A stretch of DNA of 64,000 nt. Source: Halorubrum salinarum (lineage in GTDB: Archaea; Halobacteriota; Halobacteria; Halobacteriales; Haloferacaceae). Position 1 is the stretch's first letter. Every line of letters begins with the position of its first letter. Positions 41,344 through 55,854 of this stretch are shown here, one piece after another. The notes under the pieces were generated by a model, which was not told the DNA's origin, did no database searches, and saw nothing but the letters and a program-made list of their open reading frames with translations. The stretch lies in the NCBI RefSeq assembly GCF_013267195.1, contig NZ_CP053941.1, positions 1,178,001-1,242,000 on the forward strand, written 5' to 3'. A program made the translations under genes and the position numbers.

Positions 41344-41471
41344 TCGGGTCGGATCGACAGGCTGATCGGCGGTCGTCGGGTCGCAGTCGGGCGGATTCCC
41401 GGTTCCTGTTGACCGCGTGTTGTGAACGCGTTGCCGCTAACTAATACGACAACGCTGCCGCCCCCGGCACG

Positions 41472-41477
41472 CTTAAG
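41472..41477 (+). promoter_or_regulatory. TATA box for a candidate small RNA or structured leader
   Basis: CTTAAG, the same element as at the rps12 and tRNA-Arg promoters in this window. Transcription would start near 41500, exactly where the first hairpin begins. Confidence 0.5.
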
Positions 41478-41499
41478 TGTCTACCACCGCTTGTTTCAG

Positions 41500-41600
41500 G
41501 TGACGCTTCGCTTGGAGGGCCGAAGCGTCAGCGGGGACCTACAGAACGACACGCTCGTGCCATCTTTTCCCGGCACGGGCGTGCCGTTCGTTCCTTTACC
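41500..41600 (+). ncRNA. Candidate structured RNA: two strong hairpins behind a TATA box
   Basis: Hairpin 1 pairs TGACGCTTCG (41501-41510) with 41521-41530, 10 perfect pairs and a 10-base loop. Hairpin 2 pairs 41544-41561 with 41572-41589, 18 pairs with one A-C mismatch and one G-U, around the 10-base loop ATCTTTTCCC. A T-rich segment (GTTCGTTCCTTT) follows, which may end transcription. No coding frame here looks real. It could be an independent small RNA or the structured 5' leader of the tautomerase gene that starts at 41707. Its 3' end is approximate. No known RNA family is recognised. Confidence 0.45.
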
Positions 41601-55678: not shown

Positions 55679-55751
55679 GCCCGGATGGTGTAGTGGCCCA
55701 TCATACGACCCTGTCACGGTCGTGACGCGGGTTCAAATCCCGCTCCGGGCG
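55679..55751 (+). tRNA. tRNA-Asp (GTC), copy 1
   Basis: A 73-base cloverleaf: acceptor arms GCCCGGA and TCCGGGC with discriminator G, anticodon stem CGACC/GGTCG closing the loop CTGTCAC (anticodon GTC), and T arm CGGGTTCAAATCCCG. No intron and no encoded CCA. Confidence 0.95.
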
Positions 55752-55781: not shown

Positions 55782-55854
55782 GCCCGGATGGTGTAGTGGC
55801 CCATCATACGACCCTGTCACGGTCGTGACGCGGGTTCAAATCCCGCTCCGGGCG
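55782..55854 (+). tRNA. tRNA-Asp (GTC), copy 2
   Basis: Identical over all 73 bases to copy 1 and 30 bases downstream of it. The spacer has no TATA element, so both are probably cut from one precursor. Confidence 0.95.

Follow-up and report, generated by a model that had tools for sequence, protein, structure and literature searches.

Evidence for a small RNA gene conserved across Halobacteria, with two paralogs in Halorubrum salinarum

Published work depicts the small RNAs of haloarchaea as extremely poorly conserved: of 27 studied, 22 were confined to H. volcanii (PMC3956466). Among the sRNAs of this species, Hts10 (HVO_2213s) is intergenic and lies on the forward strand after HVO_2213. It was detected by high-throughput sequencing and bioinformatic prediction, is found in 18 other haloarchaeal genomes, and its deletion leads to mild phenotypes, such as a lengthened lag on acetate (PMC3956466). 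Hts10 is recorded as one sRNA, 161 nt long (CHR 2078656-2078816), and the sources dealing with it identify HVO_2209 as oadhA4 and HVO_2212 as a protein of 78 aa (PMC3956466, PMC8305020, PMC12850539). Another sRNA, H225.2R (HVO_1727s2), is conserved in 19 genomes and was hence first suspected to be the known equivalent of the RNA studied here, but was rejected, since its neighbours are a TATA-binding protein gene and 16S rRNA, unlike those of the RNA loci.

The window analysed is a 64,000-nucleotide stretch of the Halorubrum salinarum genome (NZ_CP053941.1, positions 1,178,001 to 1,242,000), in which we focus on the element at 41472-41600, proposed in the first-pass annotation as a candidate new structured RNA behind a TATA box. 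All its features are on the forward strand. The CTTAAG box noticed there is present at 41472-41477 and lies in a BRE/TATA promoter element (GGCACGCTTAAGTG region, 41465-41478) defined by a consensus over 222 loci. From the TATA position, transcription is predicted to start at 41499-41502, at the foot of hairpin 1 (41501-41530). The latter is, as had been stated, a perfect 10-pair hairpin, formed by UGACGCUUCG (41501-41510) and CGAAGCGUCA (41521-41530), with the loop CUUGGAGGGC (41511-41520). It runs into a G-rich linker, AGCGGGGACC (41530-41539), the first A of which pairs with 41501. Hairpin 2 (41544-41589) follows, with arms at 41544-41561 and 41572-41589. These coordinates had been correctly assigned to an 18-pair hairpin, but in this genome the arms form 17 pairs, including one G-U, plus an A-C mismatch (41549/41584), whereas all 18 pairs are complete in relatives such as L002 and L009. 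The T-rich segment seen earlier corresponds to the loop of hairpin 2 (ATCTTTTCCC, 41562-41571) and to a tail, GTTCGTTCCTTTACC (41586-41600), the probable 3' end or termination region; sequences following stem 2 are pyrimidine-rich across copies. The folding energy of the 121-nt region is -56.3 kcal/mol, compared with -40.5 +/- 3.3 for shuffled sequences (z = -4.8). The TATA box and the two hairpins make up one small transcription unit, and the gene would span 41499 to about 41600, giving an RNA of roughly 90-100 nt with exact ends that are predicted ones.

A 301-base query detected the element in almost every genome of the genus. Its core of about 44 bases recurs in the majority of the other families of this order, and most genomes of the genus itself contain it a second time. 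In a class-wide sample of Halobacteria, a 33-base pattern matched 306 of 391 genomes, and a 23-base core matched 71 of the 75 genomes missed by this pattern, almost all exactly; those of the latter matches that were read have a loop longer by one base. Eight further genomes, all from Haloferax, also match. In total, a core of 23-33 nt is practically identical in 385 of the 389 Halobacteria genomes tested, a count that omits two genomes of the sample (G241 and G249), and the reversed patterns used as controls gave essentially zero matches. A covariance model of 55 positions gave matches in 52 of 53 Halobacteria; among 242 genomes from elsewhere in the phylum it matched a single one, at E = 0.006, which was taken as chance. 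Genomes devoid of the RNA come from a small number of families with small genomes (f2, f9 and f11). Since nearly all Halobacteria possess it and it is all but absent from the other archaea of the phylum, the RNA gene appears, from its sequence distribution, to be a haloarchaeal invention that has almost never been lost. Viral contigs and phages yielded no match, and a virus- or phage-borne element was rejected.

Most lineages carry one version of the gene, hereafter copy A, which is the ancestral one, and Haloferacaceae also possess a duplicate, copy B, which is the copy of the window; the RNA is therefore one of two paralogs in the H. salinarum genome. Haloferax genomes likewise have both. 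Three copies are present in each of G188 and G191 (genus g74), suggesting additional lineage-specific duplications. In most families, copy A lies between a gene for a small acidic protein and a PadR-like regulator gene (Pfam PadR), several hundred bases before the latter. Copies of the RNA are found in two unrelated chromosomal contexts, and also on plasmids. The short acidic protein encoded just upstream of copy A (MRSEEEVREQYEFLREQLDDEEMNHRGVEELFAHYKRALGWVLEEEHM; L032:1318-1461 and equivalents) is conserved across Halobacteria families, and had no family match in Pfam.

The promoter is conserved together with the core. Over 222 loci, and counting from the G of GACGC, the consensus CG..A..TTTAAGT occupies positions -37 to -24; at 155 of these loci TTWAW is found at precisely -30, for a background of 0.0017 per 13-nt window; further upstream, the sequence is unconserved. 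Because the distance between the BRE/TATA element and the core is fixed, transcription should start at the base of hairpin 1. In a plasmid copy from Haloarcula sp. GH36 (L291:3000-3054), the core is near-perfect, and the usual place holds no recognisable TTTAAG box.

Stem 1, the loop part UGGAGGG and the linker displayed no variation in 45 diverse copies; a second set, of 207 distinct copies, had been selected on part of this invariant core. Conservation extends through AAUUCAGGGCGGC in copy A, and ends after the linker in copy B. Rare compensatory changes of CUUCG/CGAAG to CUCUG/CAGAG or CUCCG/CGGAG, in divergent plasmid-type copies, indicate that stem 1 is paired at the RNA level. Stem 2 varies in sequence and keeps its pairing. 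Across 152 distinct arm pairs, the energy was -25.2 kcal/mol with a copy's own arms and -12.6 kcal/mol with swapped arms. In a length-matched set of copies A, double changes occur at 9 of 15 pairs, and the covariation score was reached by none of 500 shuffles, although a shift of -1 likewise gives a high score, owing to a bulge in some members. RNAalifold on a plain MAFFT alignment had missed this stem as loop lengths differ, and the arm-swap test and length-matched alignment were used instead. The covariation proposed as a check in the first-pass annotation is thus found in both stems, rarely in the first and abundantly in the second. Stem 1, loop and linker are invariant whereas stem 2 varies freely, from which the 5' half would be the recognised part and the 3' half a scaffold. 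The strongest argument against chance is a core almost 100% identical across families, with a TATA/BRE element at a fixed offset. Taken with the near-universal occurrence, the covariation in both stems and the unrelated gene contexts, this constant-distance TATA box makes it almost certain that the element is an independent non-coding RNA gene, one of the two options initially envisaged.

As the best overall explanation, we favour, with some confidence, an independent sRNA gene having a trans-acting role. That it acts as an RNP, through the binding of RNA targets or of a protein by its G-rich loop and linker, is, in our view, an evenly balanced proposal. In such a mechanism, transcription driven by the strong TATA/BRE promoter would begin at the base of hairpin 1, and the functional interface would be the 5' domain, made up of this hairpin with its loop UGGAGGG and of the linker; the unvarying loop and unpaired linker are as expected if this domain binds a fixed partner. 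The G-rich loop and linker would make contact with either RNA targets rich in C or a dedicated RNA-binding protein, this partner, like the abundance and the regulatory role of the RNA, being what we infer. Hairpin 2, its U-rich loop and the pyrimidine tail would ensure stability and termination, and probably offer a site for an Sm-like protein (SmAP); UUU is present in the loop of stem 2 in 80% of copies, which is only suggestive of such a site. A wider proposal, which we put forward tentatively and expect rather to fail, is that of a class-wide haloarchaeal housekeeping RNA with its own function, namely a dedicated RNP under a constraint comparable to that on SRP or RNase P RNA, rather than one more mRNA-targeting sRNA. 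It would have been overlooked because only one paralog was catalogued. The plasmids of some lineages carry their own diverged copies near genes for TRAM RNA-binding proteins.

Among the competing explanations, the one that survives best, although we judge it unlikely, is a protein-sequestering decoy, in which the GGA loop and G-rich linker would titrate one RNA-binding protein, as CsrB/RsmZ do for CsrA, with no mRNA pairing. Stem, loop and linker are all invariant, a pattern easier to account for by protein recognition than by a pairing seed. However, each RNA harbours a single GGA hairpin, where known decoys have many, and CsrA is reported absent from H. volcanii (PMC6104027). The plasmids provide a further point in its favour. 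Diverged plasmid-type copies were found at L292:3497-3552, L293:3386-3441, L195, L238-L240, L250 and L286:1534-1585 (minus strand), and a TRAM-domain protein gene is near most of these loci; such proximity is seen for the diverged plasmid copies of Halorubrum lacusprofundi and for similar copies in Halohasta-type genomes. In methanogens, TRAM proteins of the stand-alone type are reported to act as RNA chaperones (PMC6705878, PMC5572242). The chromosomal copies of the RNA have no TRAM gene nearby, and since they do not share the linkage, it is a possible clue to the protein partner and a lead only. On plasmid pHLAC01 and similar elements, diverged RNA copies also adjoin the gene for a 325-aa protein, phrog_35116 (hyp978), present in 69 haloarchaeal plasmid records. 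This protein was rejected as a constant partner of the RNA, which is lacking at eight out of eight further plasmid loci encoding it.

Less probable still is a ribosome-associated or housekeeping RNA that would dock on the ribosome in the manner of rancRNA_s194 and act on translation. The near-universal occurrence and rRNA-like conservation of the RNA, the Shine-Dalgarno-like GGAGG of its loop, and the ability of haloarchaeal sRNAs of similar size to bind the 50S subunit (PMC6104027) are consistent with this reading. Against it, the complementarity of the RNA to 16S and 23S rRNA is no better than that of shuffled sequence, which leaves direct pairing with rRNA unsupported, and rancRNA_s194 itself stems from another locus and is reported in no other haloarchaeon.

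The second option of the first-pass annotation was a cis-acting, riboswitch-like leader of the downstream tautomerase gene, which in this genome starts about 107-117 bases further on, on the same strand. Synteny makes this very improbable. At the Halorubrum site, the gene order is luciferase-like monooxygenase, RNA, dCTP deaminase and aconitase, and in six relatives (L124, L152, L165, L175, L190 and L207) copy B is kept without the tautomerase, with dCTP deaminase as the next gene. Being missing there, the tautomerase gene cannot be the regulated partner. Moreover, the gene following copy B in Haloferax points the opposite way, and copy A resides elsewhere, ahead of the PadR gene, with no tautomerase gene nearby.

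A short conserved peptide read in the frame xTG-ACG-CTT... can be discounted almost entirely: in 201 of 224 copies ACG follows an xTG codon, and this frame contains few stops, but the T of xTG is explained by the U-A pair closing stem 1, and the loop has two variable bases in 155 copies and three in 67, a one-base difference that, with identical flanks, shifts the downstream bases between frames and rules out a coding role, in line with the earlier observation that no real coding frame explains the element.

Known RNA classes were also considered. At the gathering cut-off, Rfam release 15 recovered only tRNAs over the whole window, and in E-value mode copy B and one copy A gave chance-level matches only, so that the suggested search against RNA family models returned no family. 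The tRNAs of the window include tandem tRNA-Asp(GTC) genes (55679-55751 and 55782-55854), about 30 bases apart and equal in score, an arrangement also described in H. volcanii. Box C (RUGAUGA), required ahead of box D (CUGA) in C/D box guide RNAs, is present in 0 of 224 copies, and an ACA triplet, looked for at any position of the last 45 bases, is found in only 35% of copies, and both the C/D and the H/ACA guide types were rejected. The own promoter, non-coding nature and conservation independent of neighbours are those expected of an archaeal intergenic sRNA.

With regard to Hts10, the gene order in Haloferax (L122 and L194, family names assigned by eye) is 2-oxoacid dehydrogenase E1, a small Lrp-type protein, a TrkA-like protein, a 78-aa Lrp-type protein, a DUF5813-like protein, the RNA and a transducer-like gene. 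As oadhA4 (HVO_2209) and the 78-aa HVO_2212 match this order, counting genes places the RNA at HVO_2213s, and copy B of H. volcanii is very likely Hts10. Of note, the Natronocalculus locus L133 unites the Haloferax site, with its Lrp and DUF5813-like genes, and the Halorubrum site as one region. The novelty initially claimed therefore holds in that Rfam contains no matching family, but not for copy B of H. volcanii, which by gene order is a listed sRNA. One paralog has thus been seen before, and in the open papers we found no class-wide family, two-paralog description, consensus structure or entry in Rfam. That the Hts10 deletion has only mild effects could be due to masking by the other paralog.

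The presence of about 40 invariant bases in almost all haloarchaea is the opposite of what is usual for the sRNAs of these organisms, and implies a shared role. Since two copies are present in the genetically tractable Haloferax, and one in most other lineages, function is directly testable, and the RNA merits a family entry for genome annotation. Compared with the described systems, it resembles the intergenic Hts10, which by gene order is very likely the orthologue of copy B, and differs in forming a class-wide family with two paralogs, whereas Hts10 is catalogued as one sRNA of 161 nt. Like rancRNA_s194 of H. volcanii (PMC6104027), it is an intergenic sRNA from a haloarchaeon, is about 100 nt long and has a gene to itself; rancRNA_s194 binds the 50S subunit and was rejected as an equivalent, given its different locus and reported lack of conservation. 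Lastly, Hfq- or SmAP-dependent sRNAs of bacteria and archaea are close in their working, with a conserved 5' interface, a stable 3' hairpin with a U-rich element, and their own promoter, but a class-wide, extreme conservation that includes stem and loop is unusual among them, and SmAP binding and base-paired targets are here putative.
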